A stretch of 64,000 nt of DNA from a bacterium (GTDB taxonomy: Bacteria; Myxococcota_A; UBA9160; UBA4427). Each line of letters begins with the position of its first letter. The first letter of the stretch is position 1. The notes under the pieces are model-generated. The model was not told the DNA's origin, did not search any database, and saw nothing but the letters and a program-made list of their open reading frames with translations. Both the position numbers and the translations under genes were made by a program. Where the stretch lies: NCBI GenBank assembly GCA_024742285.1, contig JANSYR010000001.1:186001-250000 (forward strand), written 5' to 3'. Of this stretch, positions 19,061 through 36,210 are shown piece by piece.

Positions 19061-21040
19061 TTGGAGGTCTCGCACGGGCTGATCGAAGCCGTCGTCCTGC
19101 TCGCGCTGGCCTCCGCGGGCCTCGCCGCGACGGAGCGACTGCGCCTGCCCTCGGTCGTCGGGTTCCTGGTGGTCGGCGCGATCGCGGGCCCCGGCGCGCT
19201 CGGGCTCGTTTCGGATCCCGACGCGGTACGCGAGCTGGCGGAGCTCGGGGTCGTCTTCCTGCTCTTCGAGATCGGGCTCGAGCTGCCCCTCGAACGCGTG
19301 CGCACGCTCTGGCGGCCTGCGCTCGTGGGCGGCGGCTTCCAGGTCGCGGTCACCCTCGCCGTCGTCGCGGCGGCCGCCGCCGCGGCGGGACTCACGTGGC
19401 CCGCGGCCTTCGTCGTCGGCGCGGGGGTCTCGATGTCGTCGACTGCGATCGTCCTGCGGCTGCTGACCGACGAGGGGCAGATCGACGCCCCGAGCGGTCA
19501 GCTCTCGGTCGCCGTCCTGCTCATGCAGGACCTCGCGATCGTGCCCTTCCTGCTGATCGTGCCGCTCCTCGCCGGGGACGTCGGGGGAACCGGCGCCCTC
19601 GCCTTCGCGGTCGGCAAGATGGTCGTCGCGCTGGCCCTGGTCGGCTTCGGCGTCTGGTTCCTCGTCCCGCGCCTGCTCGACCGCGTCGCCCAGGATCGCG
19701 GCGGCGAGCTCTTCAGTCTCTTCGCGCTGCTGATCGTGCTGGGCTCGGCGCTCGCCGCCGAAGCCCTCGGCCTGACCCTCGCCGTCGGCGCCTTCCTCGC
19801 CGGCGTCGCCGCGAGCGGTTCCCCCTACGCCCACCAGCTCTTCAGCGAAGTCGTCCCCCTCCGCGGCGTCCTGCTCGGCATCTTCTTCACCGCCGTCGGC
19901 ATGTTCTTCTCCCCGGCCCAGGTCGCCGAGGCGCCGGGCACCCTCGTGCTCGACGTCCTCGCGATCCTCATCGGCAAGAGCCTGATCGTGGTCTTCGCCG
20001 GCACGGTCCTGCTTCGCCGCTCCTTGCGCGTGAGCCTCGAAGCGGGTCTCTCCCTCGCACAGATGGGCGAGTTCGCCTTCGTCCTGCTCGGCGTCGCCAG
20101 CGCCGTCGGCGTGATCGAGCCCGTCCTCCAGGCCCGGGTCGTCGCCGCGTCGATCGTGAGCCTCGTCCTCTCCCCCTTCCTGATCGGAAGCGCACCGGCG
20201 ATCGCCGGCGCGATCGCCGAACGCCTGGGGCACCCCGGACAACGGTTCGCCGAGGACGCGGCGCTGCCGGCCGCCGACGCGGGGGAACGGGTCGTGGTGA
20301 TCGGCTACGGGCCGGCGGGACAGACGCTGATCCGACTCCTGCGCTCCCTCGACGTGCCCTTCATCGCCGTCGACACGAACCCGAGCGCGGCGCTCGAGGC
20401 GCGCGAGACCGGGGAGCCCGTGATCTACGGCGATGCGACGCGGCCGCAGGTCCTGCGTCATCTCGCGGTCTGGGACGCACGGCTCGTCGCCGTCGCGATC
20501 TCGGATCCCCTCGCGACCCGGCGGATCGTCTCACGGATCCGCGCCATGGCCCCGGACACGCCGATCCTCGCGCGCACGCGCTACGTGCGCGAGGTCGACC
20601 GCCTGTCGATGGCCGGCGCCGACGTCGTCGTCGCCGAGGAGTTCGAGGGCTCGATCGAGCTGGTCGCCCGGGCCCTCGAGAACTTCGAGGTCCCGGGCGG
20701 CGCGATCGCGCGCTTCACCGAGGCGCTGCGCGAAGAGGGCTACGGCGCGATCCGGGCGCCGGCGGCGCTGCCCATCGATCCCTGGCTGATGGAGCTCCTC
20801 GAACACACCGACACCGAGTGGGTCGAGGTCCCGCTGGACCTGACGACCCGGCCGACCCTCGGCTCCCTCGACCTGCGCGCGAGGACGGGTGGTTTCGTCC
20901 TCGTCGTCGAGCGGGGCGACGACAGCCACGCGAATCCGAGCCCGGACTTCGCCCTGGAGCCGGGCGATCGGCTGCTGGTCCTGGGCGGCGCCGAGGAGCT
21001 CCTCCGCGTGCGCGCGCTGCTCGCCGACGCCGAGGGCTGA
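19061..21040 (+). CDS. Kef/CPA2-type monovalent cation:proton antiporter with TrkA-N and TrkA-C domains
   Basis: 659 residues, TTG start with GGGGAG upstream. The first about 395 residues form some 12-13 membrane helices of the Na+/H+ exchanger fold (family segments RLPSVVGFLVVGAIAGPGAL, VSMSSTAIVLRLL, LLMQDLAIVPFLL). A Rossmann RCK/TrkA-N domain follows (RVVVIGYGPAGQTLIRLL, then a distal Asp in AVDTNP), the NAD-binding regulatory module. The C-terminal segment (GGFVLVVERGDD, FALEPGDRLLVLG) is TrkA-C. It probably effluxes K+ in exchange for H+. A 7-bp hairpin without a T-tract (21053-21070) lies after the stop. Confidence 0.9.
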   Translation: MEVSHGLIEAVVLLALASAGLAATERLRLPSVVGFLVVGAIAGPGALGLVSDPDAVRELAELGVVFLLFEIGLELPLERVRTLWRPALVGGGFQVAVTLAVVAAAAAAAGLTWPAAFVVGAGVSMSSTAIVLRLLTDEGQIDAPSGQLSVAVLLMQDLAIVPFLLIVPLLAGDVGGTGALAFAVGKMVVALALVGFGVWFLVPRLLDRVAQDRGGELFSLFALLIVLGSALAAEALGLTLAVGAFLAGVAASGSPYAHQLFSEVVPLRGVLLGIFFTAVGMFFSPAQVAEAPGTLVLDVLAILIGKSLIVVFAGTVLLRRSLRVSLEAGLSLAQMGEFAFVLLGVASAVGVIEPVLQARVVAASIVSLVLSPFLIGSAPAIAGAIAERLGHPGQRFAEDAALPAADAGERVVVIGYGPAGQTLIRLLRSLDVPFIAVDTNPSAALEARETGEPVIYGDATRPQVLRHLAVWDARLVAVAISDPLATRRIVSRIRAMAPDTPILARTRYVREVDRLSMAGADVVVAEEFEGSIELVARALENFEVPGGAIARFTEALREEGYGAIRAPAALPIDPWLMELLEHTDTEWVEVPLDLTTRPTLGSLDLRARTGGFVLVVERGDDSHANPSPDFALEPGDRLLVLGGAEELLRVRALLADAEG

Positions 21041-21346
21041 GCGGACGCGAGACTCCGGGATTCCCCGGAGCCGACGTGACCGGAGTCACGCCGATCCCGA
21101 CTCGACCGTTGCTTTTTCACCCCTCCCCGTTCGCGCCCGTCGAGAAGCTTCGTGCGACGGCTCGAACGGCCCGGTCGGGCGAAGAAGTTTCACTACAGCG
21201 GGCCCTTAGGCGCGCCGATCCGACCCGAAAGCGACCAGATCGGGGAGAACTGTGTGCGCAGCGTGCCGGAAGCCGAGATTCCGGGCGCCGCCGTCGTCTC
21301 CCCGTCTCGTTGGCGCTCTTCGCGCCGCCCATCGGAGACGAACCCT
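21041..21346. other. Intergenic region, 306 bases, no gene seen
   Basis: Between the antiporter and the beta-propeller lipoprotein, both on the plus strand. Shortly after the antiporter stop there is a hairpin CTCCGGG-ATTC-CCCGGAG (21053-21070) with no following T-run, so it is not a convincing terminator. The last about 15 bases carry GGAG ahead of the lipoprotein ATG. No promoter elements could be assigned with confidence. Confidence 0.5.
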
Positions 21347-23587
21347 ATGTCGATCCACTTTCCCCGTGTGTTTCCCCGACCCGACCAGCTGCGTTCCGCA
21401 CTGATCTGGGCTTCGGTGCTCGCACTCAGCGCCTCGACCGCCTGTCTCGACTCGAACATGGACGGCGGCGGCGCTGGCGGCGGAGGCGGCGGCGGGGGCA
21501 GCAGCGTGTCGAGCGTGTTCTCCGACCCGGCCCCCACGCCGAACCCGGGCGCCGCGGGTGCGATCGGTGCGGCGACCAGCTGCGTCACGGACACCGTCGC
21601 GGGTGTGGCCGAGACGGGACGGATCGGTCTCCCCTTCGACTCCGGCGACGTGATCGCGCTCTGCGACGGATGGGTCCTGATCGCCGACAAGACCAACGAA
21701 CGGCTCGAGCTGCGCAACATCTTCACGGGCGAGTGGGACACGCGCTGGGACCTGCCCGGCGCGCCGGACGACCTCGAGCTCGATGCGACCGAGGACTATG
21801 TCTACGCAACCCTGCCCGACCAGAGCCTGATCGCGGCCGTCGACCTCGACGCCGGAACGGTCTATGTCGCGGCCACGAACAGCGCGCCGACCTCGATCAC
21901 CCAGAGTGCCAACCATCTCCTGGTCTCGGCCAATGCCGGCGCCGAGCTCCGCGCCTACAGCAAGCCCCAGCCGACCTTCGTCGGCCTCGACGCGACGCTG
22001 GCGGGCACCGAGATCATCTACAACGAGACCACCGACCAGCTGATCGGAATCGACGACAGCAACATCACGCTCTTCGACTACGCCGAGGGCGGGGTCGTCC
22101 TGACCGCGACCGGCGACGAGGACCCGTCGACCGGCACGGTCCTCGACCTCGACCTGTCCCCGGACGACAGCCGGATCGCCTTCGTGAACGAGTCGGGCAA
22201 CGCCAGCTTCGCCGGCAGCAACGTCATCAACGACATGTCGACGGCGGACGTCGACACGGTCATGGGCGCCTGGAAGGTCGAGGTCGCTCCCACGGCGGCG
22301 GCCTTCAACCCGATCGGCGGTGAGGACTTCCTCCTCGCGACGAGCGCCTCGTCCTACGTCGTCTTCGACTTCGCCAGGCACGCCGAGATCACGCGAACGA
22401 CCCCGACGAGCAGCTGCGGCGGCAGCTTCGACGAGGCCGAGTTCTCCGCCGGCGGCGAGATCGCCATCGCCAAGATGAGCTGCTCCGGGACCGGCACCGA
22501 GCTCCACTGGTACGCGCCCGCCGCGGGCTTCGGCGACTCCAACAGCACGATCGGCGTCCCGGCCGGCATCCTTGCGACGACGATCGGAGATCCCTTCTGC
22601 TCGACGGACACACCCCCCGGCCCGACCCGGGGCTCGCTCGCGGTCCCGCGCGGCGAGGACTTCGAGCCCTTCTGCGACGGCTGGGCGTTCGTGACCGAGC
22701 GCGGCACCAACCGCGTCGTCCTGAAGGACATCGTGAGCGGTACGACCGCCGCGGAGTGGGACCTCCGGGACGTCCCGGTCGAGATGGTCGTCGACGAGGC
22801 GACCCAGTTCCTCTACGTCGCGATGGGCGCCGGCGGTGGCCTCGCCCGCATCGACCTCGCCGGCGCGGGCGCGGGGACGCTCGTCCAGCAGGAGGCCCCG
22901 GCCTTCCCGCAGTCGCTCACTCTCGGCAACGGCGGCGACGTCTGGACGACCGGGTTCTACGAGCCGGGCGAGATCGGCATCAACGTGACGAACGGACCGG
23001 GCATGGTCGACGGCGGTGCCTTCGGCGCGAGCCCGTCCTTCACGACGGATCCGCACACCTTCACGAGCGGCACCACCCAGATCGCTTTCGACCGCACCAA
23101 CAACGTGATGTTCGTCAGCGGAACGAGCGGACTCGCGAGCTTCACGGAAGGTGCGGGCACCTTCGACCAGCAGGACGTCGACCTCGAGGTCTTCGACGAC
23201 CTCGCCTCAGAGATCATCCTGGCTTCGCCGGATGACGTCTCGATCGCGATCGTCGACCAGAACGCCGACCTGATCTTCGACCTCGAGACCGGCGACACCC
23301 AGGACCTGACCGACACGTTCTGGATCGTCGACTCGCTGCTCGACATGACGGGACTCGCCTTCACCGGCGGAACGGGGAACCGCCTCGGCGTGGCGACGAC
23401 GCAGGAGCTAATCGTCTTCGACGCGAACGGAGCCCACGACGAGATCGTGACGGTCCAGCCGACGTCCTGTGACGTCGACTCGGAGGCTCGCCCGGGCATT
23501 TCCCGCGGCGACGGGATCGGCTTCTACAAGACCGACTGTGGCGACCCGAACTCGCTGACCGAGACCATCTACTGGTGGCAGCTCTAG
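21347..23587 (+). CDS. Large lipoprotein with two YVTN-type beta-propeller-like halves
   Basis: 746 residues from ATG 21347 (GGAG about 10 bases upstream). The signal peptide ends in a lipobox (LSASTAC), then a Gly-rich tether (about 40-55). The mature chain has two similar halves: LCDGWVLIADKTNERLELR, with DLPGAPDDLELD, in the first, and FCDGWAFVTERGTNRVVLK, with DLRDVPVEMVVD, in the second. Each is built of repeats of the form 'x-x-D-x-x-x-x-x-x-Y-V/V-A'. The repeated CDGW starts suggest an internal duplication. Expected outside the cytoplasm; probably a binding or scaffolding protein, with no catalytic residues visible. Ends 165 bases before gcvP, with a terminator between. Confidence 0.75.
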   Translation: MSIHFPRVFPRPDQLRSALIWASVLALSASTACLDSNMDGGGAGGGGGGGGSSVSSVFSDPAPTPNPGAAGAIGAATSCVTDTVAGVAETGRIGLPFDSGDVIALCDGWVLIADKTNERLELRNIFTGEWDTRWDLPGAPDDLELDATEDYVYATLPDQSLIAAVDLDAGTVYVAATNSAPTSITQSANHLLVSANAGAELRAYSKPQPTFVGLDATLAGTEIIYNETTDQLIGIDDSNITLFDYAEGGVVLTATGDEDPSTGTVLDLDLSPDDSRIAFVNESGNASFAGSNVINDMSTADVDTVMGAWKVEVAPTAAAFNPIGGEDFLLATSASSYVVFDFARHAEITRTTPTSSCGGSFDEAEFSAGGEIAIAKMSCSGTGTELHWYAPAAGFGDSNSTIGVPAGILATTIGDPFCSTDTPPGPTRGSLAVPRGEDFEPFCDGWAFVTERGTNRVVLKDIVSGTTAAEWDLRDVPVEMVVDEATQFLYVAMGAGGGLARIDLAGAGAGTLVQQEAPAFPQSLTLGNGGDVWTTGFYEPGEIGINVTNGPGMVDGGAFGASPSFTTDPHTFTSGTTQIAFDRTNNVMFVSGTSGLASFTEGAGTFDQQDVDLEVFDDLASEIILASPDDVSIAIVDQNADLIFDLETGDTQDLTDTFWIVDSLLDMTGLAFTGGTGNRLGVATTQELIVFDANGAHDEIVTVQPTSCDVDSEARPGISRGDGIGFYKTDCGDPNSLTETIYWWQL

Positions 23588-23641
23588 GGACGCCTCGGCG
23601 ATCCACCACCGAACGAGGAGACGGCTGGTCCGGCCTCCTGG

Positions 23642-23669
23642 AACGTCCGCGGCCCCTGCCGCGGGCGTT
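23642..23669 (+). terminator. Intrinsic terminator after the beta-propeller lipoprotein
   Basis: A 12-bp stem (AACGTCCGCGGC / GCCGCGGGCGTT) with one G-U pair and a 4-base loop CCCT, followed by TTTTCG. It lies 55 bases after the stop and before gcvP, so gcvP likely has its own promoter. Confidence 0.8.
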
Positions 23670-23752
23670 TTCGCTTGGGCTGCTAGGATCCGGGCACCCC
23701 GTGGTCGCCAGGCGCGCACCCCCCATCGCGCCGGCTCGACAGGTCCCCCCGC

Positions 23753-26695
23753 ATGCCTCAGCCGTCTCCTGAATCGTTCCTCGCGAAGGTCCGTCCGTCG
23801 GACACGTTCGCCCGTCGCCATCTCGGTCCCCGAACGAGCGACCTGCCGGAGATGCTCGCGCGCGTCGGTGTCGACCGGCTCCAGGACCTCGCCGACGCGA
23901 CGATTCCGGCGTCGATCCGTTCGAAGGAAGCGCTCGTCCTCGACGGACTGCCCGAAGCGCCCCTCGGCGAAGCCGAGCTGCTGGCCGCGCTGCGCGAGAT
24001 CGCCAACGAGAATCGCGTCCATCGCAGCTATCTCGGCCAGGGCTACCACGACACGATCGTGCCCGGGGTGATCGCGCGGAACGTGCTCGAGAATCCGGGG
24101 TGGTACACCCAGTACACGCCCTACCAGGCGGAGATCTCGCAGGGAAGGCTCGAGGCGCTCCTCAATTTCCAGACGATGGTCTCGGATCTGACGGGACTCG
24201 ATCTCGCGAATGCCTCGCTCCTCGACGAGGCGACTGCGGCGGCGGAAGCGCTCGGTCTCTGTCGCGCCGTCGCGAAGGGAGACCGGAAGAACGCGATCTT
24301 CGCCGCCGACGACTGCCACCCGCAGACCCTCGGCGTGCTCCGGACCCGCGCCGAGGGCCTCGGCATGACGCTCCACGTCGGCGACCCGGAGACGGCGGAC
24401 TTCGACGCGCTCGGGGTCGGCGGCGTGATCCTCCAGTATCCCGCCACCGACGGCCGGGTCCGCGACCCGCGCGGAATCATCGAGCGCGCCCACGATGCCG
24501 GCGCCCTCGCCTGCGTCGCGGCGGACCTGCTGGCGATGACGCTGCTCACGCCGCCCGGCGATCTCGGTGCGGACGTGGCCTTCGGCACGACCCAGCGCTT
24601 CGGCGTCCCGATGGGCTTCGGGGGTCCCCATGCTGCCTATTTCGCGACGCGCGACAAGCACGCACGCCGGATCCCCGGTCGACTCGTGGGGCTTTCGCGT
24701 GACCGCGACGGTCGCCTCGCCTACCGCCTCGCCATCCAGACCCGCGAGCAGCACATCCGCCGCGAGAAGGCGACGAGCAACATCTGCACCGCGCAGGTCC
24801 TGCTCGCGATCCTCGCGTCGATGTACGCGGTCTACCACGGACCGGAAGGCCTCACCCGGACGGCGAAGCGCGTCCGCGCCCTGACCGGCGCGCTCAAGCG
24901 TGGTCTCGTCCGACTCGGACAGGAGGTCGAGGACTTCGACTATTTCGACACGCTGCGGGTCCGGCCCGTCGGCCTCTCCGCGCAGGACGTGCTCTCCGCG
25001 GGCTGGGAGCGCGAGCTGAACCTGCGCGCCTTCTATCGTCAGGGCGCGGAAGGTGTGGAGCCCGATGGTTCGCTCGGCATCTCCCTCGACGAGACGACGA
25101 CCCCGGACGACGTGCTCGACATCCTGTCGTGCTTCGCGGGCGAGGCGGATCTCGATTTCGACTTTGACGCCCTCACGCCGACCGACGAGAACGAGGACGC
25201 CCTTCCCGAGTCCCTGGTCCGCACGAGCCCGTTCCTCACCCACGAGGTCTTCCACCGGCACCACTCCGAGACGGAGATGCTGCGATACATCCATCGCCTC
25301 GAGGCGAAGGACCTGTCCCTCACGACGTCGATGATCCCGCTCGGGTCGTGCACGATGAAGCTGAACGCGACCGTCGAGATGATCCCGGTCACGTGGCCCG
25401 AGTTCGGCCAGCTCCACCCCTACGCGCCGGCGGACCAGGCGGCGGGCTACTCGATGCTCTTCGAGCAGCTCGAGACCTGGCTCGGCCAGATCACCGGACT
25501 CCCCGCCGTCTCCCTGCAGCCCAACGCCGGATCCCAGGGCGAGTACGCAGGCCTGCTCGCGATTCGGCGCTACCACCAATCCCGAAGACAGGCCCGCGTC
25601 GAGGCCGAGCGCGACGTGTGCCTGATTCCGGTATCCGCCCACGGCACGAACGCGTCGAGCGCGGTCATCGCCGGCTTCCGCTGCGTCGCCGTCAAGTGCG
25701 ACGAGCGCGGGAACATCGACGTCGCCGACCTGCGCGAACGGATCGACGAGTACCGCGACCAGCTCGGTGCGCTCATGATCACCTACCCGTCCACCCACGG
25801 CGTCTTCGAGGAAGCGGTGGTCGAGATCTGCGGCGCGATCCACGAGGCGGGCGGTCAGGTCTACATGGACGGCGCGAACATGAACGCGCAGGTCGGCCTG
25901 ACCTCGCCCGCCGAGATCGGCGCCGACGTCTGCCACCTGAACCTGCACAAGACGTTCTCGATTCCGCACGGCGGCGGCGGTCCCGGCATGGGGCCGATCT
26001 GCGCGGCCGAACACCTGCGCGACTTCATCCCGGGCCACCCGGTCTTCGGAGAAGGCGCGGTCTCCGCGGCGCCCTTCGGCTCGCCCTCGATCCTGCCCAT
26101 CTCGTGGGCCTACATCGCGCTGATGGGCGCCGAGGGGCTGACCCGCGCGACCCAGATCGCGATCCTCAACGCCAACTACATGGCTCGCAAGCTCGCGGAC
26201 CATTTCGAAGTCCTCTACACCGGACCCGGCGGTCGCGTCGCCCACGAGTTCATCATCGACTGCCGCCCCTTCGAACGAACGGCGAACGTGACCGTCGAGG
26301 ACATCGCCAAGCGCCTGATCGACTACGGATTCCACGCGCCGACGATGTCCTTCCCGGTCGCCGGAACGCTGATGATCGAGCCGACCGAGAGCGAGTCCAG
26401 GGAAGAGCTCGACCGACTCTGCGAGGCCCTGATCGGGATCCGGCAGGAGATCGTCGCGATCGAGCGGGGTGACGTGGCCGACGGGGAATCGCCCCTCAAG
26501 CACGCCCCGCATCCGGCGGAAGTCGTCTGCGGCGACGACTGGCCCTTCGCCTACACCCGCGCCGAGGCCGCCTACCCGGCGCCCTGGACCCGGGAGCACA
26601 AGTTCTGGCCGCCGGTGGCGCGAATCGACAACGCCTACGGGGACCGAAACCTGGTCTGCACCTGCCCGCCCCTCGAAGAGCTCACCGAGAACTGA
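23753..26695 (+). CDS. gcvP: Glycine dehydrogenase (decarboxylating), GcvP, single-chain form
   Basis: 980 residues. The two-lobed P-protein architecture is complete: N-terminal lobe ([49 protein letters not shown]) and C-terminal PLP lobe. The PLP lysine is in [18 protein letters not shown] (Lys about 733). It decarboxylates glycine with pyridoxal phosphate and passes the aminomethyl group to the H-protein. No gcvT, gcvH or lpdA lies nearby; the rest of the cleavage system must be elsewhere. I saw no glycine riboswitch upstream. Confidence 0.97.
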
Positions 26696-26834
26696 GCCGT
26701 CCTCGACCCAGCCGACCCGGGGCTGCCCCGGAGGCGGCCCGGCCTCGGATCCGCGCTTGCGTGCCAGTGCTACCGTTTCGCGCTTCGATGCGTGCGGGCG
26801 CCGGCGGGCGCGACACGCGAGGGGTGCTCGTAGC

Positions 26835-29045
26835 GTGGGTGATCCGGACTCGTTGTTCTCGATTCTCTGGCCGTCCGATGGGACGGGCCAGCAGGCCCTG
26901 TGGGTCGTGCTCGGCGCCGCCGCCCTCGCGGCGATCACGGTCTACGGCCCGCTCGCGGTCCGGCTCGTCCGCCTCTTTCTGCTCGAACGGCGCCTCCGCG
27001 ACCAGACCCGGGACGCCGGGCAAGGGAGACCGCCCGGCGACGCCGGGGATCCGCTGCGCGACGCGATGGCGGACTCGCCCCTCGCGGACGCCTTCGCCGA
27101 GTTCGATCGACGCTGGTCGACCGCCCAGCTCGGCGAGGCCGGCGGCCGGGCCCCGATCCGACTGATCGACGTCTTCGAGGACAAGCCCCTGCTGCCCTTC
27201 GGACCCCGGCGAAGCCTGCTTCCGACGCTGCCCGGGATCTTCCTCGGACTCGGGGTCTTCGGCGCCCTGGCCGGGCTGATTCCGAGCCTTTCGAGCCTGG
27301 CCGCCGACGAGGCCGGCGCAGACGCGCAGTCGGCCTGGCTCGCCATGCAGCTGGGCCAGGCGCTTCGCGTGACGGCCTGGGGGTTCCTCTGTGGCCTGGG
27401 CGCCTCGCTGACCGGTCGCCTCCTCGAAGGCGGCTTCAACGCCCGCGCCGTGGCGCTCGACGAGGTCGTCGAGCGCGCCTACGGCTCGGTCTCCCCCGGC
27501 GAGCTCGCCGAGATCACGCGGCAGACCCAGCAGCGCAGCCTCGAGACCCTGGGCAAGGAGCTGGGCCAGTTCGGCAACGAGCTGAACGAACGCCTCGACC
27601 GCGGCCTGCAGCGGATCGAGCAGTCGACCTCGCGCGCCGCGAGCCTGGTCTCCCAGGAACAGCGCGGCGCCCTCCACACCGTCGTCCAGGAGCTCTCCCT
27701 CTCCGTGCGACAGGGCGTGGAGCACCACCTCGCCGAGCTGCGCAACGCGCTCCAGCGCGCCACCGAACACCAGGGAACGGTCACGAGCGGCCTGGCCGAG
27801 ACCTTCGAGCGAATGGTCGAGAACGCGCAGACACAGGACCGCATCGCCCGCACCCTGATCGAGAGCGCGAGTGCCGTCGAAGAGGCGGCGCGCACGATGC
27901 ACGGGACCGCCGGCGAGATGCAACCCGTCCTCGACCACCTCGGATCGACCAGTCGGTCGCTGTCGAACACCGCGGATCGCATGGGCGACACCCAGCAGGT
28001 CGTCGCGCGAACGGCCGAGGGCGTCCGGACTTCCCTCGAGCACGCCGCGGAAGGCGTCGAGGAGCAGCGACAGTTCGTCGAGCGCTCACTCTCCGAGATC
28101 CGACGCGCCCTGGTCGGCCTGGGGGACGGACTCGGCGACTCGCTCCAGCGCTCCCTCCGCGAAGTCGACGACGTGCTCGGCCTGACGGTCGGCCAGCTGC
28201 GCGACACCCTCGCCGAGAGCAACGAGACGATCGACCGGCTGGCCGGTCCGATCCGCGCCGCAGAGGGCTCGACCCGCGAGACCCACGTCGCCCTCGACCG
28301 CGTCCGCAACGAGGTCGAAGCCCTCGGGCAGTGGATGAATCAGGCCATCAAGCCGCTCCGGACCGGAGTCGGCGACGTCGAGGCCCGCGCCGAAGACATC
28401 GCCCGTGCGATCGGCGAGTTCACCAGCCACACGCGCCAGATCGACAAGACCATGGACGCGCTCCGCCAGGAGATCCACGAGGAGAGCCGGAGGCTGCAGG
28501 GCGCGGGCGGTGACCTCGGTCGGCGTCTCACCCAGGCGACCGACGCCGTCGCGCTCCTCGAGACTGCGACCTCGGAAGCGGCGCGCAAGGCGCGGCCGAA
28601 GGACATCGTCGCCGGGGCGCCGCGGGAGCGCGAGTCCGGCGTGGCGCGGGAACGCAACTGGTCTCCGGCCCCGCCCTCGGATCCTGCCCGGGAGACGGAG
28701 CCGCCGCGGGACACGAGCCGCGCCGTTCGACCGCCGCGCGAGCCGGAGCCCCTCGCGAACGAGCCGACGACCCCCGCCTTCGCGGCGGCCGAGGCGAGCG
28801 AGGAGCCCCACGAATCGACGGGGCGCGACCTCGCGCTCTCCGGCTACCGGATGGGAACACCGCGCGCCCAGGGTCCCGACCCCTACGCGCGCTTCGACGA
28901 CGCCGAGTCCGAGCCCCAGTCGAACGTACGCCACTTCCCGACCCCGGATCGCGAGCTCGGTGAGGATCTCAAGCTGTCGGGACTGCTCGGAACGAGCGCG
29001 AAGGACCGCGACGACGAAGCGGACGACGAAGAAGAGAAGGACTGA
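26835..29045 (+). CDS. MotA/ZorA-like membrane protein with long coiled-coil tail
   Basis: About 736 residues from a GTG at 26835, preceded by GAGGGG. One N-terminal membrane helix (about 18-40), a cytoplasmic stretch with FEDKPLLPF, then two more helices (TLPGIFLGLGVFGALAGLIP about 130-150, and TAWGFLCGLGASLTGRLLEG about 178-200). A very long helical tail (about 210-580) with heptad-like spacing follows, then a Pro/Arg/Glu-rich disordered end. This is the ZorA/MotA plan: stator helices plus an extended cytoplasmic tail. The next gene, four bases on, is a MotB/ZorB-like partner, so the two form a stator unit. No zorC, zorD or zorE lies nearby. Function (defence, trafficking or gliding) cannot be told. 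Confidence 0.75.
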   Translation: MGDPDSLFSILWPSDGTGQQALWVVLGAAALAAITVYGPLAVRLVRLFLLERRLRDQTRDAGQGRPPGDAGDPLRDAMADSPLADAFAEFDRRWSTAQLGEAGGRAPIRLIDVFEDKPLLPFGPRRSLLPTLPGIFLGLGVFGALAGLIPSLSSLAADEAGADAQSAWLAMQLGQALRVTAWGFLCGLGASLTGRLLEGGFNARAVALDEVVERAYGSVSPGELAEITRQTQQRSLETLGKELGQFGNELNERLDRGLQRIEQSTSRAASLVSQEQRGALHTVVQELSLSVRQGVEHHLAELRNALQRATEHQGTVTSGLAETFERMVENAQTQDRIARTLIESASAVEEAARTMHGTAGEMQPVLDHLGSTSRSLSNTADRMGDTQQVVARTAEGVRTSLEHAAEGVEEQRQFVERSLSEIRRALVGLGDGLGDSLQRSLREVDDVLGLTVGQLRDTLAESNETIDRLAGPIRAAEGSTRETHVALDRVRNEVEALGQWMNQAIKPLRTGVGDVEARAEDIARAIGEFTSHTRQIDKTMDALRQEIHEESRRLQGAGGDLGRRLTQATDAVALLETATSEAARKARPKDIVAGAPRERESGVARERNWSPAPPSDPARETEPPRDTSRAVRPPREPEPLANEPTTPAFAAAEASEEPHESTGRDLALSGYRMGTPRAQGPDPYARFDDAESEPQSNVRHFPTPDRELGEDLKLSGLLGTSAKDRDDEADDEEEKD

Positions 29046-29048
29046 CGC

Positions 29049-29876
29049 GTGGGCGCACGATTCCACGGCAGGAGCGCGAACGCGCGGGACGCGGGGCAGC
29101 CCATCCGCGGCGGACTGACGCCGGCGGGCGCGTCGGGATTCGGCGAGTGGTGGGGCGGACTCGTGGCCGTCGCGCTGGTCGCGGTCGGCGTGGTCCTCCT
29201 GACCGGCAGCCGCGATCCGGGCGCTGGCGGGAATCGGATCGATCCATCGCCCCGGATGCTCGCAGCGATCGAGCCCTCGGCCCGCTCCCTCGAAGCCGTG
29301 GATCGCGCCTTCGCCTCCCTGTGCGCAGATCCCGTCCTGCTCGCCCTCGAGCTCGAGCCGAATTGCGAGACCGGCGTGATCACGCTCTCCGACGAGCTCT
29401 TCGACGGCTTCGGCAGCGCCGCCCTCGGCCCGGAGGCCCAGGAGGATCTGCTCGCGGCGATGCGCGTCTACCTGGCGAAGCTGCGCGCGCTGCCGTCGAT
29501 CTGGAGAAGCCTCGAAGCGATCGAGCTCCGCGGACACGCCGATCCGCGTGCGGTCCGAGACCCCTACGTCACGAACCTGGTCGGTTCGCAGCAGCGGCCG
29601 CTCGGCGTGCTCCTCTTCCTGGTCGGCGAGAACGGCCTCGGCGCGGTCGACCGGGCCGACCTCGAGCGACTCGCGGTGGTGTCGGGCGTGTCGTTCTCCC
29701 GCCCGCCGGAGACGTGCCCCGACCGCAGCCGCGAGTGCTACCCGGAATGGCGCCGGGTGGAGATCCGACCCGTCCTCTCCGAGTCGCTCCGTCGCGGTGA
29801 CTGGTCGCGAACTCTCGAAGACGTTCGCGTCAGCGCCCGGCAGCTCCGGGCGGAACTCGCCGAAACGGAGCCCTGA
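29049..29876 (+). CDS. MotB/ZorB-like protein with OmpA-type peptidoglycan-binding domain
   Basis: 275 residues. One membrane helix near residues 38-58 precedes a periplasmic OmpA/MotB-like domain: FDGFGSAALGPEA, ELRGHADPRAV (the G-H-x-D motif), TNLVGSQQRPLGVL and RRVEIRP at the end. In MotB/ZorB the helix begins with an F-A-D-x-M-type motif whose Asp carries the ion. Here the aligned motif is F-G-E-W-W-G-G-L, so Glu may replace Asp. The gene starts four bases after the MotA/ZorA-like stop, and the two are almost certainly cotranscribed and form a complex. Confidence 0.75.
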   Translation: MGARFHGRSANARDAGQPIRGGLTPAGASGFGEWWGGLVAVALVAVGVVLLTGSRDPGAGGNRIDPSPRMLAAIEPSARSLEAVDRAFASLCADPVLLALELEPNCETGVITLSDELFDGFGSAALGPEAQEDLLAAMRVYLAKLRALPSIWRSLEAIELRGHADPRAVRDPYVTNLVGSQQRPLGVLLFLVGENGLGAVDRADLERLAVVSGVSFSRPPETCPDRSRECYPEWRRVEIRPVLSESLRRGDWSRTLEDVRVSARQLRAELAETEP

Positions 29877-30046
29877 TCCGCCGGGCTGCCCGGACCTCGC
29901 GGCCGACCCGCCGGCGATCCAGCGGCCCGGGAATCCCGCCGTCACACGGGAAGAACCGCCCGCCCCGTCTTCGCGAGGAAACGCCCGCTGGCCCAGCGGG
30001 TTCCTTTGGTATGCTCTGGCCGCTTCAACTCCAGGGGAGACGCCCG

Positions 30047-30628
30047 ATGTCCCGTTCTCGATCCGCCCTTTCCTTCCTCGACCGCCGCCCCGTCGCGGCG
30101 ATCGCGGCTGCCCTGATCACACTCCTGGCCCTGGCGGGCTGCGAGTCCGGAACCCAGGAGCCGGAGGCCCCGACCGCCGAGCCGGTCGAGTTCGGCGCCG
30201 ATCCGACCCCGGAAGCCTCGGAGCCGAGCGCGACCGCGTCGGGTTCGGGCGCCACGGGCGCCGGTGGAATCGCGGCCGAGCGCTTCCCCGAGGCGCTTCC
30301 GGATACCGCAGAGGCTGCGATCCCGTCGAACTTCCCGAGCAGCCTGCCGGTCTACCCGAACTCCGTGCCCGCGCTGGGCATGTCCGGCAACGTCGAAGGC
30401 AGCGAGCGGAGCGCCGTCCAGCTCCTGTCGAACGACCCGCCGGCGGAGGTCGCCCGCTTCTACAGCGACGAGCTCGAGGCGAACGGGTGGGAGATCACGG
30501 CCTCCGAGTCCGGTGCCTCCGGCGAGTCGATCACCGCCACGAACGGGTCGACGACGACCGTGCTCTTCTTTCGCGCCTCAGCGGACGGCGGCACGGACAT
30601 CTTCCAGCTGAACGAGGGCGGCGTCTGA
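30047..30628 (+). CDS. Small hypothetical lipoprotein
   Basis: 193 residues from ATG 30047, with GGGGAGA upstream. Basic N-terminus, hydrophobic segment and lipobox (LALAGC). An acidic Pro/Ala/Ser-rich linker (about 35-80) precedes a domain (SLPVYPNSVPALGMSGNV, SNDPPAEVARFYSDELEANG, WEITASES, TTTVLFFRAS). The PAEVARFYSDELEANGWEI segment resembles domains found in secreted bacterial lipoproteins that sense a decaying signal, but no function is known. An intrinsic terminator follows. Confidence 0.65.
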   Translation: MSRSRSALSFLDRRPVAAIAAALITLLALAGCESGTQEPEAPTAEPVEFGADPTPEASEPSATASGSGATGAGGIAAERFPEALPDTAEAAIPSNFPSSLPVYPNSVPALGMSGNVEGSERSAVQLLSNDPPAEVARFYSDELEANGWEITASESGASGESITATNGSTTTVLFFRASADGGTDIFQLNEGGV

Positions 30629-30689
30629 GCGTCACGCGCCTCGCCGCTCCCGGCCCTTCCCGGACGGCTCCGGGAAGCGCTCGAACCAG

Positions 30690-30717
30690 AACGGCGTCGC
30701 CTGCGGGCGGCGCCGTT
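30690..30717 (+). terminator. Intrinsic terminator between converging genes
   Basis: A stem AACGGCGTCGCC / GGCGGCGCCGTT (12 bp, one G-U pair) with 4-base loop TGCG, followed by TTCT. It lies between the lipoprotein gene (plus) and the FHA-cyclase gene (minus), which ends at 30762. The A-rich end on the other strand is short, so it works mainly for the plus strand. Confidence 0.75.
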
Positions 30718-30761
30718 TCTCGTCGGGGCGTGATCTTCCCTGCCGATGGGCAGTCGCGGAT

Positions 30762-32291
30762 TCAGGCGCCGCTACGAACGTCTTCGGGTGCGAGGAAACG
30801 ATCCACCCGATAGAGCGGCCCCCCGTCGCCCGCGAGCTCGCCGACACTCGTGACCGGCAGGTCCTTGCCGACGCTCTCGAGCGTCTGCTCCGAGATCAGC
30901 ATCGTGTTCGGCTCGGCCTGCTTCTGGATGTGCCCCGCGGTATCGAGGACTTCGCTGTACGCGATGCCCGCCGAGAGATCGACGAGAGACACGCCGGTAT
31001 GGGCGCCGATCCGGAAACGGAAGGGCTTGCCGAGCAGGTTCGAGTCCTCGTTGAACGCTTCGAGGCGTTCGAGAATCGCGCTGCCGGCCAGGAGCGCCGA
31101 TTCGGGACTCTCGAAGAAGCACATCAGCTCGTCGCCGTTGCTGTTCAGGACCTGCCCTTCGAACTCTTCGCAGATCCCGGACACGAAGCCGCGGAAGCGA
31201 TCGAACGACACGATGATGTGTTCCGCCTTCTCGCCGCCGCCCTTCATCTTTCTGGACTCGACGACGTCGACGTCGAGGAAGCTGCCCATCACGTTGAACT
31301 GCTCGATCTCCCGCTCGAGATCGAGCTTGTGCTCCATGCGAGCAGAGAGGGCGGAGCCGGAGAGCGAACTCGCGGCGCGCTCGGCGGGTCGCGCCTTCGC
31401 CGCGAGGGCCAGGCGGAGCACCACCTGATCCGCGAGCTGGATCTCGTCCCCGTTCTCGAGCTCGACCCGATCGACGACGGGAAAGCCGTTCACGAAGGTC
31501 TGGTTCGTACCGCTCTTGTGGACCAGCTCGAGGGAGCGGCCGGCGATCTCGATCTCCGCATGGAGCCGCGACACGCCGCGCTCGGGAATGCGGACATCGA
31601 CGTCATCGCCACGGCCGATCGTGGTCGTCCCCATCGAGATGGGGAAGCGTGCGCTCGCGAGCTCTTCGATCCCACGCGCGACGATCAGGTCGCCGATCTG
31701 CACGTCCACCGGGCGCATGTCCGTCGCGTCGCTGACGATGCCCGCGCCGACGTCGACGGTCGAAACCGTGACTTCGGAGGCGGAATCCCGCGGCGAAGGC
31801 GAGCGGGTCGCGGCGGGCTGGGTCACCGCGGAGCGCAGGGTGGCCCCCGTCGCGGTGCTCTCCCGCGCGGCGTCCTCCATGATCTCCGTCAGACCGGAGA
31901 GGTTCATGCCCTGCCGCGCGCGCACGTCGATCGCGACCCGGCCCATCTCGATCCGGTCCCCGACCGAGAGGCGCGCGCGAGAGATCTCGGCCCCGTTCAG
32001 GAGGGTCGGGTTCGCGGCGGTCGGGATGTGCTCGATCGAGGTGCCGGACGCGTCGCGGCGGATCCAGGCCTGCTTTCGCGAGATGCTCTTGTCGTCGAGC
32101 CGGATCACGTCGACCTGGCCGCTCGCAGGCTGGCCGCGGCCGAGCAGGACTTCGTTGCCCTCGAGGGTGAACTGGCTGCCTGCGTCCGCACCCGCGACGA
32201 CCAGGAGCTCCATGACGGGCCCCGTGGGCTCGCGCTCCTCACGACTGCGCCAGGCGGTCAGCCAGGTCGACAAGGGTGCTCTCCCCTCCAT
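30762..32291 (-). CDS. FHA-FHA-cyclase-like signalling protein
   Basis: About 509 residues from ATG 32291; an ATG at 32213 (MELLVVAGADAG) is an alternative. Two forkhead-associated domains: about 30-105 (VLLGRGQ, SISRKQAWI, LLNGAEI) and about 205-290 (TTIGRGDDVDVRIPERGVSRLHAEIEI, read in parts, and TFVNGFPV). FHA domains bind phosphothreonine. The C-terminal about 150 residues resemble a class III nucleotide cyclase (SFDRFRGFVSGICEEFEGQV, NSNGDELMCFFESPESALLA, FRFRIGAHTGVSLVDLSAG). The second metal-site Asp (NGDEL) is present, but the first metal site reads F-D-R rather than F-A-D, so activity is uncertain. Confidence 0.8.
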   Translation of the reverse strand: MEGRAPLSTWLTAWRSREEREPTGPVMELLVVAGADAGSQFTLEGNEVLLGRGQPASGQVDVIRLDDKSISRKQAWIRRDASGTSIEHIPTAANPTLLNGAEISRARLSVGDRIEMGRVAIDVRARQGMNLSGLTEIMEDAARESTATGATLRSAVTQPAATRSPSPRDSASEVTVSTVDVGAGIVSDATDMRPVDVQIGDLIVARGIEELASARFPISMGTTTIGRGDDVDVRIPERGVSRLHAEIEIAGRSLELVHKSGTNQTFVNGFPVVDRVELENGDEIQLADQVVLRLALAAKARPAERAASSLSGSALSARMEHKLDLEREIEQFNVMGSFLDVDVVESRKMKGGGEKAEHIIVSFDRFRGFVSGICEEFEGQVLNSNGDELMCFFESPESALLAGSAILERLEAFNEDSNLLGKPFRFRIGAHTGVSLVDLSAGIAYSEVLDTAGHIQKQAEPNTMLISEQTLESVGKDLPVTSVGELAGDGGPLYRVDRFLAPEDVRSGA

Positions 32292-32535
32292 CCCCGATCG
32301 GGCCCCATGAACGGGCCCGAGAACCGGCCGAGCCGGCTCGTTCGGCGAACGGGAGACACCATAGGGGGCCCTGTCGGCCGAGGGAAGCAACGGAGCATGG
32401 CGGGCCGGCCTTCCCCGAGGGGCATTCGTTCTCGGCTCCGGTCGAGTCGTCTTCGTCGGCGGATCGGGGCGTGCGGATGAGCCGGTTCGTGGACGAGGGG
32501 GAATCGAACCAGGGCAGGTCCGAAAGCGTGTCGAA

Positions 32536-32760
32536 TCAGCGCTGGGCCTTCAGGCTCTTCGCCAGCAGCTCGTAGGCAAGGGTCGCCAGCGGCGTCTTCT
32601 TCCGAGACGCGAGACGGTTCAGCCTCTTGAGCTCGGCATCGGTCAGCATGATCGCGACGCGGTTCCTGCGCGCGTTGGGCGAAGGTCCGCTTCCGGATCC
32701 CTTCGGACGCCCCGCCCCGGGACGCGCGCCGCCCCAGCCGAATTTCTTCTTCGCTGCCAT
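32536..32760 (-). CDS. Small ribbon-helix-helix-type DNA-binding protein
   Basis: 74 residues from ATG 32760 (MAAKKKFGWGG), chosen for GGGAGAG five bases upstream. A Gly/Arg/Pro-rich arm (GGARPGAGRPKGSGSG) precedes a short segment (RRNRVAIMLTDAELKRLNRLASRKKTPLATLAYELLAKSL, read in parts) shaped like a ribbon-helix-helix domain. The G-G-x-R-x-G-A-G-R-P arm is shared by many small bacterial and phage-associated proteins that bind DNA. It is probably a repressor or nucleoid factor; no target is known. Confidence 0.75.
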   Translation of the reverse strand: MAAKKKFGWGGARPGAGRPKGSGSGPSPNARRNRVAIMLTDAELKRLNRLASRKKTPLATLAYELLAKSLKAQR

Positions 32761-32934
32761 GATCTCTCCCACTCGAGGGCGTGGGTCCCCGTTCGCATGC
32801 GAACGGAACCGGCCCCCGAGCCGAGTCGTTGGCCAACCGATCGTCCGCCCCGTCGAGCAGATCGATCGGGCGAACCCAACAATTCGAGGTGGGAGAAGAC
32901 CGTAGTCGCGCCGAGCCCTTCGAAATCGAAGGAC

Positions 32935-33381
32935 TCAGTCGTCATCTCGTCGGTGGCGACGCTCACGCTTGACCGCACTTCTGCGACGTTTCTCCTGCAA
33001 ACGTCGCTCGACGGCCCCCTTGCGCGGCTTCGTCGGCCGCCTGGCAGGCGCCTGATAGAGGGCCGTCCGAACGACCTCGAAGAGGCGATCGTGGGCTTCT
33101 TCGAGGTTCCGGCGCCGGCTGCGATGGCGGTCCGCATGGACCACCAGCACGCCGTCACTCGTGAGCCGGCTCGCCAGCTTGCGGAGCAGGCGTTCCCGGC
33201 CGTCCGGCATGAGCCCCCTCGACGTGCGCAGGTTCCAGCGCAGCGAGACTCGGGTGCTGGACGTGTTCACGTGCTGGCCGCCGGGGCCGCTGGCCCGGCT
33301 CGCCAGCTCCTCGATCTCGAGGGCCGGGATACGATTGCCGCCCGGCAGCGCCCGATCCTCGCGCCCGCGCCTCGCTGCCAT
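32935..33381 (-). CDS. arfB: Peptidyl-tRNA hydrolase ArfB (RF-1 domain, ribosome rescue)
   Basis: 148 residues. The catalytic GGQ is in RASGPGGQHVNTSSTRVSLRW, and the rest matches YaeJ/ICT1-type release factors, which lack the codon-reading domains. The basic C-terminal tail (RRPTKPRKGAVERRLQEKRRR) is the element that enters the empty mRNA channel of a stalled ribosome. It hydrolyses peptidyl-tRNA on ribosomes stuck on non-stop mRNA. It is transcribed toward the ribbon-helix-helix gene, 174 bases away. Confidence 0.92.
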   Translation of the reverse strand: MAARRGREDRALPGGNRIPALEIEELASRASGPGGQHVNTSSTRVSLRWNLRTSRGLMPDGRERLLRKLASRLTSDGVLVVHADRHRSRRRNLEEAHDRLFEVVRTALYQAPARRPTKPRKGAVERRLQEKRRRSAVKRERRHRRDDD

Positions 33382-33632
33382 GGTGCCTCCCTCCCCTCCC
33401 TGCGTCCGTACCCGCGGTGGCCGACTCTGGCCGCTCCCGGCACCCCCGCCCGCCGACCGATCGGAAAAAAGGGGCCGACCTCGGGATTCCGATTGCCGGC
33501 GCCGGATTCCTCGGTCGGGGCTTCAGACCGGGGCCCGAACGGTCGAATCGTCCAGAGGGGAAGCCCCCCTTGTCGAGACGCTCCGCGGCGCCGCCCGGAC
33601 CCTCGATTCGCGGGCAAGGGAAGCGCGACTTC

Positions 33633-35303
33633 GTGAGTGAGTCCAGCAGCGAACAGGTGAATAGCCGCGCGATCGTGATCCAGCGCGCCGGCGAGCTCTC
33701 CGAGTTCGTGACGATCCTCCAGAAGCTCGCGGTCACCGTGGAGATCCACGACGGCCCAGGGCTTCCGAGCCCCGACGAGGTCGCGAACGCGTCGGTCGTC
33801 ATCGTCGCCGGCAAGCGCCTGCTCGAAGGCCGTACCCCGAATCTCTCGCTCTGGCCCCGCACGCTCGCGGTCGCGGACAACGCGAGCAAGACGATGCTCG
33901 CCCACTTGAACCGGGTCGGGGCATCCCTCGTCATCCGCCGACCGATCCACCCGCGTACGCTTCGCCTCGTCCTGCTGCACCAGCTCTACCGGGGTCCCGA
34001 GCGTCGCAAACGCAAGCGCACCCACATCGGTCATCCGATCCGGGTCGGTGCGGGCCTCTTCAAGCAGCGGGCGACGCTGCTCGAGCTCTCGGATACCGGC
34101 GCACGCGTCGAGCTGCCGAAGGAGCCGAAGGTCGGGATGAAGCTCAATCTGCTGCTCGGCAAGGAGCTGACCCTCGGCAAGCCGCTCAAGCTCAGTGCCA
34201 AGGTCGTCCGCGGAATTCGCGCCCCCGGCGAGAACGGGCGCCAGGACTCGATCATCGGCGTCGCCTTCGTCGATCCGCGCCAGCACCACAAGGCCGTCTC
34301 GGCGATCCTCGATCGATTCGCCGCTGGCCCGGCGAGCTGGAGCGGCAAGCTCGAGGCGACCGCAGGCGAGGCGCCCGCCAAACCGACGAGCCCGCCGATC
34401 GAGCCGGTCCCGCTGCCCGAGGAGATCGATCCCGAAGCGTCCGCGCGCAGACTCCCCCCGACCCGAGCAGCGCACCCGCGGCCCGCGGCTGCGGTCGCTG
34501 CGACACCTCCGGCGACCGGGACGCCCGTCGAGCCGGTTGCCATCGACGAGCCCGCGGCCGCCGCCGCGACCGCAGCGCCCGAGCCGAAGATGAAGGTGAA
34601 CGCCGAAGCGGAGGCGGCCCCGGCGACGGACGAGGGCACTTTCCACGACGACCTGACCGAGGCGATCGAGCCGGATGCGCTCCCGGACCCGGACGAGATC
34701 GAGTTCGAAGCGGACTTCGATCCCCTCGCGCCGCCGGTCGAAGACCCGGAAGAAGTCTTCGAAGACGAGGTGGCCTCCGCCCTCGACGTGCTGGGCGGCG
34801 AGGAAGTCGAGCCCGAAGAAACCGACGTCGACGAGCGACGAAGCGACCCGCGGATCCCGTACGACCGCCGCATCGTCGCCCTCGGCGAGGAGGCCGCGCG
34901 CGTCCTCGTCGGTCGCGACCTCTCCCATGGCGGGATGCGCATCGGCCCGACCGATGCCGTCGACGTCGGCGACACGCTCCGCGTGGCGCTCCATTGCGGG
35001 ACCGAGCTCGAGCCCCTGGTCGTCCTCGCGACGGCGCTCCGGGACGACGGGGTCGCCGGGGTCGTGCTCGAGTTCCAGGAGCTCTCGGACGGTCAGCGGG
35101 ACCACCTCGAGAAGATCATCGCCAGCAGCAGCCCGCTCCGGATGGGCCGGGACGAAGACCTCTTCGAGAAGAGCGGCGCGGTCGTGATGGGCGAGATGCT
35201 CGAGACGATCTCGAAGGCGGGTCCGCCGCCGCCGAAGGACAAGCTCGTCGACAGCGACGACGAGATCAACGCCCACCTCGACGATCTATTCGACGCAGAC
35301 TAG
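33633..35303 (+). CDS. Double PilZ-domain protein
   Basis: About 556 residues from the GTG at 33633; another GTG eight codons downstream is possible. The first about 115 residues resemble a degenerate receiver-like domain (AIVIQRAGELSEFVTILQKL, VAGKRLLEGRTPN). A first PilZ domain runs about 120-235 (RRKRKRTHIGHPIRV, LLELSDTGARVEL). An acidic Pro/Ala/Glu-rich linker (about 245-395) precedes a second, canonical PilZ (RRSDPRIPYDRRIVA, GRDLSHGGMRIGPTDAVDVGD, RxxxR and D-x-S-x-x-G motifs). The second is likely to bind cyclic di-GMP. Its 3' end overlaps the 3' end of the converging lipoprotein gene by 18 bases. Confidence 0.85.
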   Translation: MSESSSEQVNSRAIVIQRAGELSEFVTILQKLAVTVEIHDGPGLPSPDEVANASVVIVAGKRLLEGRTPNLSLWPRTLAVADNASKTMLAHLNRVGASLVIRRPIHPRTLRLVLLHQLYRGPERRKRKRTHIGHPIRVGAGLFKQRATLLELSDTGARVELPKEPKVGMKLNLLLGKELTLGKPLKLSAKVVRGIRAPGENGRQDSIIGVAFVDPRQHHKAVSAILDRFAAGPASWSGKLEATAGEAPAKPTSPPIEPVPLPEEIDPEASARRLPPTRAAHPRPAAAVAATPPATGTPVEPVAIDEPAAAAATAAPEPKMKVNAEAEAAPATDEGTFHDDLTEAIEPDALPDPDEIEFEADFDPLAPPVEDPEEVFEDEVASALDVLGGEEVEPEETDVDERRSDPRIPYDRRIVALGEEAARVLVGRDLSHGGMRIGPTDAVDVGDTLRVALHCGTELEPLVVLATALRDDGVAGVVLEFQELSDGQRDHLEKIIASSSPLRMGRDEDLFEKSGAVVMGEMLETISKAGPPPPKDKLVDSDDEINAHLDDLFDAD

Positions 35304-36080
35304 TCCGTAGAGGACGCCGGGGAGCCCGAGCGGGCCCTCCCCGTCTTCGTCGAGCCAGCGCTCCTCGAGCGCCTCCGCCCCCGCCGCGCGGCGCAGGGCC
35401 GAGGGCGACGGGTCGATCTCCCGCGCCATGCGCGCGACGCCGCGGCCATCGTCGAAGACGCGCTTCTCGATCCGGCTCTCGAGGGCGATCGCCAACGCGA
35501 GGCGCGCATCCCCGAGCGCCGACGCTTCCTGATCCTCGGCCTTCCAGGTCGGCCCGGAGATCCCCGTCGCACAGACGCGCTCGGCGGCGCTCGGTGCCTC
35601 GATCAGCCAGCGCGGGTATTCGAGGTCGGGAAGCCCGCTCAGGTCGGCGTCCGGGAAGCACGCGAGGGCGTGAACCTGACGAAGGCGGGCGCGCCCCTGC
35701 ATGCCCGGATTCGTTTCCGCCCAGAGCGCCGCGATCCGCGCGTCCGCGAGAACCCCGGACAGGGATTGCGTCGTCATCTCGAACTCGCCGCGGGAGCCCG
35801 TTCCCGTGATCGACTGGACGTCGACGGAGAGCGAGCCCGCCGCGAGGGCATCGATCGCGGCGACTCGCGAATAGCGAATCGCGTTCCGCGGATTGAGCGT
35901 CGGCCCCGAGGACCCGACCGCACATCGTACCGGCGGCTGATCGACCCAGGCCGCCACCGGCCGCGGCGGCTCGAACCGATCCACCACCGGCGGCCCGCCC
36001 CGCTCCGCCCCCGCGCACGAAACGAAACAAGCCACGAGTCCCAACAGACTCGTGGCTCGTTTCAACATCATCATCTCCAT
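35286..36080 (-). CDS. LPP20-type lipoprotein with two internal repeats
   Basis: 264 residues. Four in-frame ATG codons lie near the start; GGAG sits just upstream of the later ones, so the true start may be 36068. The lipobox is ACFVSC. The mature part has two LPP20-like units: CAVGSSGPTLNPRNAIRYSR-V/A-A-I-D-A-L and CATGISGPTWKAEDQEASAL-G-D-A-R-L-A-L, both following the family pattern 'G-V/T-G ... A-x-x-x-A/A-x-A'. Members carry out poorly known envelope functions. The gene's 3' end overlaps that of the double-PilZ gene on the other strand. Confidence 0.7.
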   Translation of the reverse strand: MEMMMLKRATSLLGLVACFVSCAGAERGGPPVVDRFEPPRPVAAWVDQPPVRCAVGSSGPTLNPRNAIRYSRVAAIDALAAGSLSVDVQSITGTGSRGEFEMTTQSLSGVLADARIAALWAETNPGMQGRARLRQVHALACFPDADLSGLPDLEYPRWLIEAPSAAERVCATGISGPTWKAEDQEASALGDARLALAIALESRIEKRVFDDGRGVARMAREIDPSPSALRRAAGAEALEERWLDEDGEGPLGLPGVLYGLVCVE

Positions 36081-36210
36081 CGGAGCGTCCCGGTCAAGGA
36101 GAGGATCATTCGCCGGTTGCCGGCTCGCTCGGAGCTGGCTCCCAACTCGCGCCGAGCGCCCCTGGAGCCGGAGCGAACTCCAAGCTCGCCGAGCGCCCGC
36201 AGGCGAAGGA

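Follow-up and report, generated by a model that had tools for sequence, protein, structure and literature searches.

Within a window of 64,000 nucleotides (positions 186,001 to 250,000 of contig JANSYR010000001.1, assembly GCA_024742285.1, lineage Myxococcota_A; UBA9160; UBA4427), taken from a host genome of 6.5 Mb that is 95% complete, two genes on the same strand encode a MotA-type protein with a long coiled-coil tail (A subunit) and, after a spacing of 3 bases, a MotB-type protein (B subunit). This arrangement was described in an initial annotation, which likened the pair to the ZorA/ZorB stator of the Zorya defence system, and it was confirmed by the open reading frames, the prediction of three transmembrane (TM) helices in the A subunit and the periodicity of its stalk. 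The pair is real and ZorAB-like and, as judged by alignment, the aspartate that carries the ions in motors of this kind is absent from the full-length B subunits of the window's family, which comprises 30 draft genomes in which single absences of a gene may be gaps.

Against profiles of known families, the A subunit matched PADLOC ZorA1 (E 6e-12) and NCBIfam ZorA (E 1.6e-9, 36.7 bits with a cut-off of 190), and the B subunit matched PADLOC ZorB1 (E 1.9e-9) and had no match in NCBIfam. Pfam MotA_ExbB was borderline for the A subunit, scoring 19 bits when the protein was searched and 23 bits when the frame in the genome was, at a cut-off of 22.9, and matches of the same protein to coiled-coil Pfam families, PHROG and JetC were taken as coiled-coil similarity. 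For searches of the PDB, family profiles were built from 11 ZorA N-termini and 12 ZorB proteins. The best matches of the ZorA profile were E. coli ZorA 8qyk, 8qyy, 8qyh and 8qyd with E values of about 1e-11 (8qyk_A, E 9.8e-12), the rivals TolQ (E 0.075) and MotA (E 0.3) being weaker, and the best match of the ZorB profile was ZorB 8qyd_F (E 1.3e-6), with MotS as the next B-type match (E 9.3e-6). The comparison with Zorya, MotAB, ExbBD and TolQR that had been proposed with the annotation thus placed ZorA and ZorB first for the two genes. AlphaFold models gave an A subunit with three TM helices, where MotA has four, and a B subunit with one TM helix and an OmpA-like domain. In fold searches the A subunit matched ZorA with Z 12.4-13.1 (8qyy with Z 12.9 and a root-mean-square deviation (rmsd) of 3.7 over 194), tied with TolQ 8vlw (Z 12.5), and the match to MotA was weaker (Z 8.3). 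The B subunit matched ZorB 8vvi (Z 14.4, rmsd 4.3 over 189) and 8vvn (Z 12.6), then PomB 3wpw (Z 12.5), MotB 3s02 (Z 11.7) and E. coli ZorB 8qyd (Z 11.7), the last ranking under several peptidoglycan (PG) domains. Because a Z of 12-13 for a helical model lies near the background of the tool, the profile result, in which ZorA and ZorB rank first, weighs more than the fold result, in which they are at or near the top.

In 5:2 ion-driven rotary motors a conserved aspartate lies midway through the TM helix of the B subunit (PMC9389320), and this residue is reported to be conserved in MotB, TolR, AglQ/S and ZorB (PMC9389320, PMC11890865). D24 of ZorB is described as crucial for the defence of Zorya I and II, for which the PG domain and the ZorA tail are also required (PMC11890865). 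When the family profile was aligned with E. coli ZorB by HMMER, the segment FWISYADLMTAMMV of ZorB ran without gaps over the hydrophobic TM segment of the family and its aspartate stood opposite a hydrophobic residue. The aspartate column held Ala in five, Tyr in four, Val in two and Met in one of the 12 full-length B subunits of the family, never Asp or Glu, and an acid was found in the hydrophobic core of the helix in 0/12. This set excludes two incomplete B genes, broken in locus L040 and cut off in L039, with Ile and Ala respectively at the position and, in L040, a Glu further along the helix and out of register, as well as the B of L031, which has no TM helix. Among B relatives of the same phylum outside the family, the aspartate was present in 5/5 read. 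Ten such genomes matched, and N-termini were read for the five with a MotB-type TM helix (L068, L069, L070, L072 and L073); L074 was set aside as a lipoprotein-like OmpA protein of a different kind, and G245 (L071), G292, G357 and G371 stood outside the count. PADLOC recognises the Asp-bearing L068 (genome G148) as a Zorya locus with ZorA, ZorB and ZorD, and the Asp-bearing L069 (G173) with ZorA, ZorB and ZorC, a ZorD match lying on another contig of G173. On this alignment the motor aspartate is absent from the full-length B subunits of the family, and its presence in the relatives suggests that it was lost there.

Table 1. Features of the ZorAB-like pair and its surroundings. Positions are those of the window unless a locus is named.
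Feature	Position	Strand	Remarks
gcvP (glycine dehydrogenase), as the gene is presumed to be from its sequence	23753..26695	+	Frequent upstream neighbour of the pair
ZorA-like A subunit	26835..29045	+	736 amino acids, GTG start; three TM helices predicted, followed by a long coiled coil; C-terminus of low complexity and probably disordered
A subunit, predicted TM helix 2	27204..27299	+	Residues 124-155; Ala at E. coli ZorA Thr147 position
A subunit, helix 3, membrane part	27318..27428	+	Residues 162-198 of helix 162-216; Thr at Ser184 position; Arg178
A subunit, coiled-coil stalk	27495..28616	+	Residues 221-594
GPDPYAR motif near A C-terminus	28872..28892	+	G.DP[YW] in 11/16 A subunits
LSGLL motif	28974..28988	+	[LIV][SA]xLL in last 120 residues, 16/16 A subunits read
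ZorB-like B subunit	29049..29876	+	275 amino acids, GTG start; profile and fold matches
B subunit, single predicted TM helix	29142..29207	+	Residues 32-53
B subunit, Ala40	29166-29168	+	Occupies place of ion-carrying Asp
B subunit, OmpA/MotB-type PG-binding domain	29349..29777	+	Profile and fold
c6, small predicted lipoprotein	30047..30628	+	Same strand as pair; frequent neighbour, kept where pair decayed
c3, FHA-domain protein	30762..32291	-	Frequent convergent neighbour
B-less ZorA-like protein	L105 4286-5734		No ZorB gene found in genome
B-less ZorA-like protein	L106 5757-7205		No ZorB gene found in genome
B-less ZorA-like protein	L107 5587-7611		No ZorB gene found in genome
B-less ZorA-like protein	L108 2024-3925		No ZorB gene found in genome

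In Zorya a ring of Ser and Thr residues in ZorA surrounds the aspartate. The corresponding pore positions were read in 15 A subunits, namely the 16 used for the tail motifs minus L032, whose N-terminus is missing; the numbers D26 of ZorB and T147 and S184 of ZorA are those presumed for the E. coli proteins. The Thr147 position was Ala in 10, Thr in three, Val in one and Ser in one, and hence neither Ser nor Thr in 11/15. At the Ser184 position stood Thr in six, Ser in three and Gly, Leu and Pro in two each, and the residues of the four B-less A subunits there are Pro, Pro, Leu and Gly. The position of Glu89 in the calcium site (E86/E89 of ZorA, as taken from a PDB title) was Arg in 11, Tyr in two, Gly in one and Ser in one, never acidic. 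The three A-subunit helices of the window have no acid in their cores (residues 20-50, 127-155 and 166-196). Arg178 of TM helix 3, which occurs in 13/15 family A subunits and in none of three reference proteins, was considered as a charge replacing the ion and was dropped.

The sequence features of wall binding are retained in the full-length B subunits of the family. The PG-binding motif GHxD...SQxR was found in 12/12 members with His163, Asp165 and Arg183 invariant, the PG-binding sites of ZorB being those described in PMC11890865. Four cysteines of the B subunit (C92, C106, C223 and C230) are likewise invariant (12/12) and absent from two Zorya outgroups, and may form periplasmic disulfides. 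The stalk of the window protein has 4 prolines in 373 residues and a hydrophobic period of 3.54 residues, which was reached by 0/500 shuffles scored on a coarser grid of periods, and a significant period of 3.50-3.74 was found in 13 of 16 A subunits, all except L105, L106 and L108. These 16 omit G003, G007 and G017, which are cut by contig ends or lie on other contigs. Within the C-terminal tail, the motif [LIV][SA]xLL is also carried by 4/4 A subunits without a detected B, and neither of the two Zorya outgroups whose ZorA was tested has it. A shared docking code was also considered for GPDPYAR and rejected, since the own genome has one occurrence of the DNA pattern, in the A gene itself. Ratios of nonsynonymous to synonymous substitution (dN/dS) of 0.12-0.27 for ZorB (10 pairs) and 0.19-0.26 for ZorA (6 pairs), with 0.08-0.11 for gcvP (3 pairs), indicate that both genes of the pair are under purifying selection.

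Intact PG-binding residues, together with 9 strong MotA_ExbB matches elsewhere in the own genome, would also suit a pair that tunes another stator, its ion-dead A or B subunit mixing with live TolQR, ExbBD or MotAB or competing for peptidoglycan. This is held to be very unlikely in view of the A-only genomes, which retain the stalk tip motif, and of the annotated neighbours, among which no such stator gene occurs; tolA, tolB, pal and tonB were not found by Pfam scan of 10 neighbours. Mixing with TolQ or ExbB in particular seems unlikely since the A subunits are of the ZorA type, with three TM helices and a long stalk.

With the ZorB profile at E 1e-6, matches were obtained in 15 of the 79 genomes of the order, all in the window's family. 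A and B occur together in 13 of the 30 family genomes, four of these being cut by contig ends or split over contigs (G003, G008, G017 and G023), and A occurs without a detectable B in a further four (G009, G015, G020 and G021), with a broken B in G005 and at a contig end in G007. In G027 (L031 8928-9569 and 9569-10062) A is reduced to a remnant and B is an open frame without a TM helix. G006, G022 and G025 gave weak A2 matches (E 1e-4 to 1e-5), which were confined to the common MotA_ExbB core and were not taken for members. B is missing from the loci of G009, G020 and G021, as shown by a lipoprotein gene directly after A in the first two and by a distance of about 600 bases from A to the FHA gene in the third. 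The ZorA-like genes of L105 and L106 directly precede a c6-like lipoprotein gene. In 12 genomes a single fetched stretch contains both the A gene and gcvP; A follows gcvP there in the same orientation, and the distances of ZorA and gcvP were correlated (Mantel r 0.88, p 0.0001). In G012 and G016 the pair has other surroundings, and in G015 and G021 the stretch fetched holds no gcvP. From these comparisons the pair looks like a dispensable chromosomal locus inherited mostly vertically beside gcvP, and not like a mobile defence island. According to the initial annotation, the motor might serve a separate purpose outside defence, for instance gliding or envelope transport; reuse as a motor is not supported, because the aspartate is missing from 12/12 full-length B subunits and A was found without B in four genomes.

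Its other suggestion was a defence subtype not yet described, in which ZorB would sense wall damage and recruit an unlinked or uncharacterised effector without ion flow. Such a role would agree with the two PADLOC-recognised Zorya loci among the relatives, where ZorD in one case and ZorC in the other adjoins the pair, and with the retained PG-binding residues and stalk. A helicase matching the ZorD helicase core, encoded on other contigs in 19 of the 20 family genomes searched, could be counted on the same side; it was rejected as ZorD as it matches in the helicase core only, scores below the two Zorya genomes, and the model matches 8/14 control genomes including B. subtilis. The remark that zorC, zorD, zorE and other defence genes are lacking nearby held good: none of the PADLOC families, zorF and zorG among them, was matched at E 0.001 in the 10 neighbouring proteins scanned (18603-36834). 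Genome-wide, ZorC was found by PF15611 in 0/30 family genomes (4/377 in the phylum) and by PDLC00616 in 0/20, which is weak evidence because PDLC00616 also missed the Zorya genome G148. The empty neighbourhood, the mostly vertical inheritance beside gcvP and the absence of the residue reported as crucial in Zorya I and II (ZorB D24, PMC11890865) make a defence subtype unlikely. At the Zorya locus L068 (344-14933), the genes next to the system encode a protein with a BrxB domain and a large one that combines helicase and restriction endonuclease domains, and a gene of 357 amino acids between B and D had no PADLOC match at E 0.001.

The pair resembles Zorya I and II in its best profile match and top or near-top fold, in the adjacent genes in the order A then B, in an A subunit with three TM helices and a long cytoplasmic coiled coil, in a B subunit with one TM helix and an OmpA/MotB-type PG domain, and in the conserved His and Arg of the PG site. 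It differs from them in having no TM aspartate in any of the 12 full-length B subunits, in that the pore Thr is mostly gone and the calcium-site Glu89 gone, in a C-terminal extension of A whose short motifs are missing from two Zorya ZorA proteins, and in its mostly gcvP-linked inheritance, with no zorC/D/E match in 10 neighbours and some genomes in which no B was detected. Zorya type III, given as ZorA, ZorB, ZorF and ZorG (PMC8565338), has the ZorAB core in common, the 10 scanned neighbours of the pair giving no match to ZorF or ZorG. MotAB and PomAB share the fold of the MotB-type PG domain, whereas the pair has three predicted TM helices and a stalk in A, no aspartate, and weaker A-subunit profile and fold matches to these motors. 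TolQR and ExbBD are alike in the TM core fold of the A subunit, where TolQ ties with ZorA, and are set apart by the OmpA-like domain of B, the A stalk of about 370 residues, the missing aspartate and a weaker profile match. A survey of MotAB relatives leaves ZorAB outside its trees (PMC12505986).

The explanation preferred here, with slightly better than even chances, is that the pair is a 'de-motorised' ZorAB, a wall-anchored membrane scaffold that docks a cytoplasmic partner and is neither a motor nor a defence system. A Zorya-type ZorAB would have been taken over for a task in which attachment to the wall and a stalk in the cytoplasm are required and ion flow is not. A ring of ZorA around a ZorB dimer in the inner membrane would then form a fixed anchor that grips the cell wall and holds the coiled-coil stalk in the cytoplasm, and the short motifs at the tip of the stalk ([LIV][SA]xLL and LGPDPYAR) may recruit a putative partner to the wall-attached membrane site. 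The complex would act by scaffolding, or by signalling through position or conformation, and ion-driven rotation would play no part; some genera would have lost the B anchor, leaving the docking tip to the A subunit alone. As a course of events it is plausible, at a little less than even chances, that selection turned a rotary stator family non-rotary, keeping wall grip and stalk and giving up ion transport, that the pair left defence for a role next to gcvP in which it is inherited vertically, and that the ZorB 'axle' was then shed in several genera where A keeps its partner-docking tip. No ZorAB or MotB/ZorB lacking the aspartate was found among titles and opening lines of abstracts in the open-access literature, and a precedent in print is possible. 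If the scaffold reading is right, a clade without the aspartate and yet under purifying selection would mean that the 5:2 architecture has a use independent of ion flow, and the sensing or scaffolding part of Zorya could be studied separately from the motor. It would also be a warning that ZorAB profile matches do not suffice to call a defence system.

Several observations weigh against the scaffold. An acid lies at the cytoplasmic edge of the B helix, 7 residues before the aspartate position, in 8 of the 12 B subunits (Glu33 in the window), and the Ser184 position is Thr or Ser in 9/15 A subunits (9/11 of those with a B gene, whole or broken), so that, with Thr147 kept in three, some pore polarity survives. 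Both could belong to a live motor with another ion-carrying residue. The edge acid is missing in 4/12 (L032, L033, L034 and L036) and occurs in both Zorya outgroups alongside their aspartate, and is for these reasons no substitute for it; with no acid in the core of the B helix or of the three A helices in the window, and with four genomes in which A was found and B was not, a live motor is very unlikely. Neither gene was found in 10/30 family genomes, from which the pair appears dispensable; together with the broken B of G005 and the A remnant of G027 this would fit decaying, functionless remnants of a former Zorya locus. The dN/dS values, the open frames of 736 and 275 amino acids, the invariant PG residues and a tip motif kept across genera speak against decay, to which a small probability is given. 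The motif [LIV][SA]xLL is short and was picked after inspecting the sequences, the proteins that gave its individual shuffle values (0.002-0.049) are related to one another, and 5/16 have more than one copy. The AlphaFold2 confidence of the two models was moderate (predicted local distance difference test 77.5 and 69.3). A loss of the aspartate, as opposed to its original absence, is suggested by the Asp-bearing relatives, and both the partner at the stalk tip and the assembled complex are putative.

Conserved neighbours of the pair, which the initial annotation had proposed to look for, were found in part: gcvP, c6 and c3 are frequent, and neither c3 nor c6 is obligate. c3-like proteins occur in G013, G025 and G029, where the pair was not found, and were lacking in the pair-bearing G010, G016, G017 and G023; c6 was rejected as an obligate third gene, being retained in G027 despite the decayed pair. 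c6 is clear in genera g1 and g6, and in g10 the lipoprotein at this place bears little resemblance to that of the window (E 0.009 and 0.18), the g2 lipoprotein being of the g10 type. All-against-all BLAST of called genes gave no c6 in L034-L038, where the candidates in L034 and L037 were without similarity. On the 5' side of the pair lie gcvP, a protein of 723 amino acids (21416-23587) with no Pfam match and no relative in the other loci compared, and a Na/H-exchanger with TrkA domains. The 3' side holds the predicted lipoprotein, the convergent FHA protein, a PilZ protein and LPP20 and DUF4384 proteins, and the cluster of LPP20-type and DUF4384 genes (35286-38859) has relatives at the same place in several genomes of the family.

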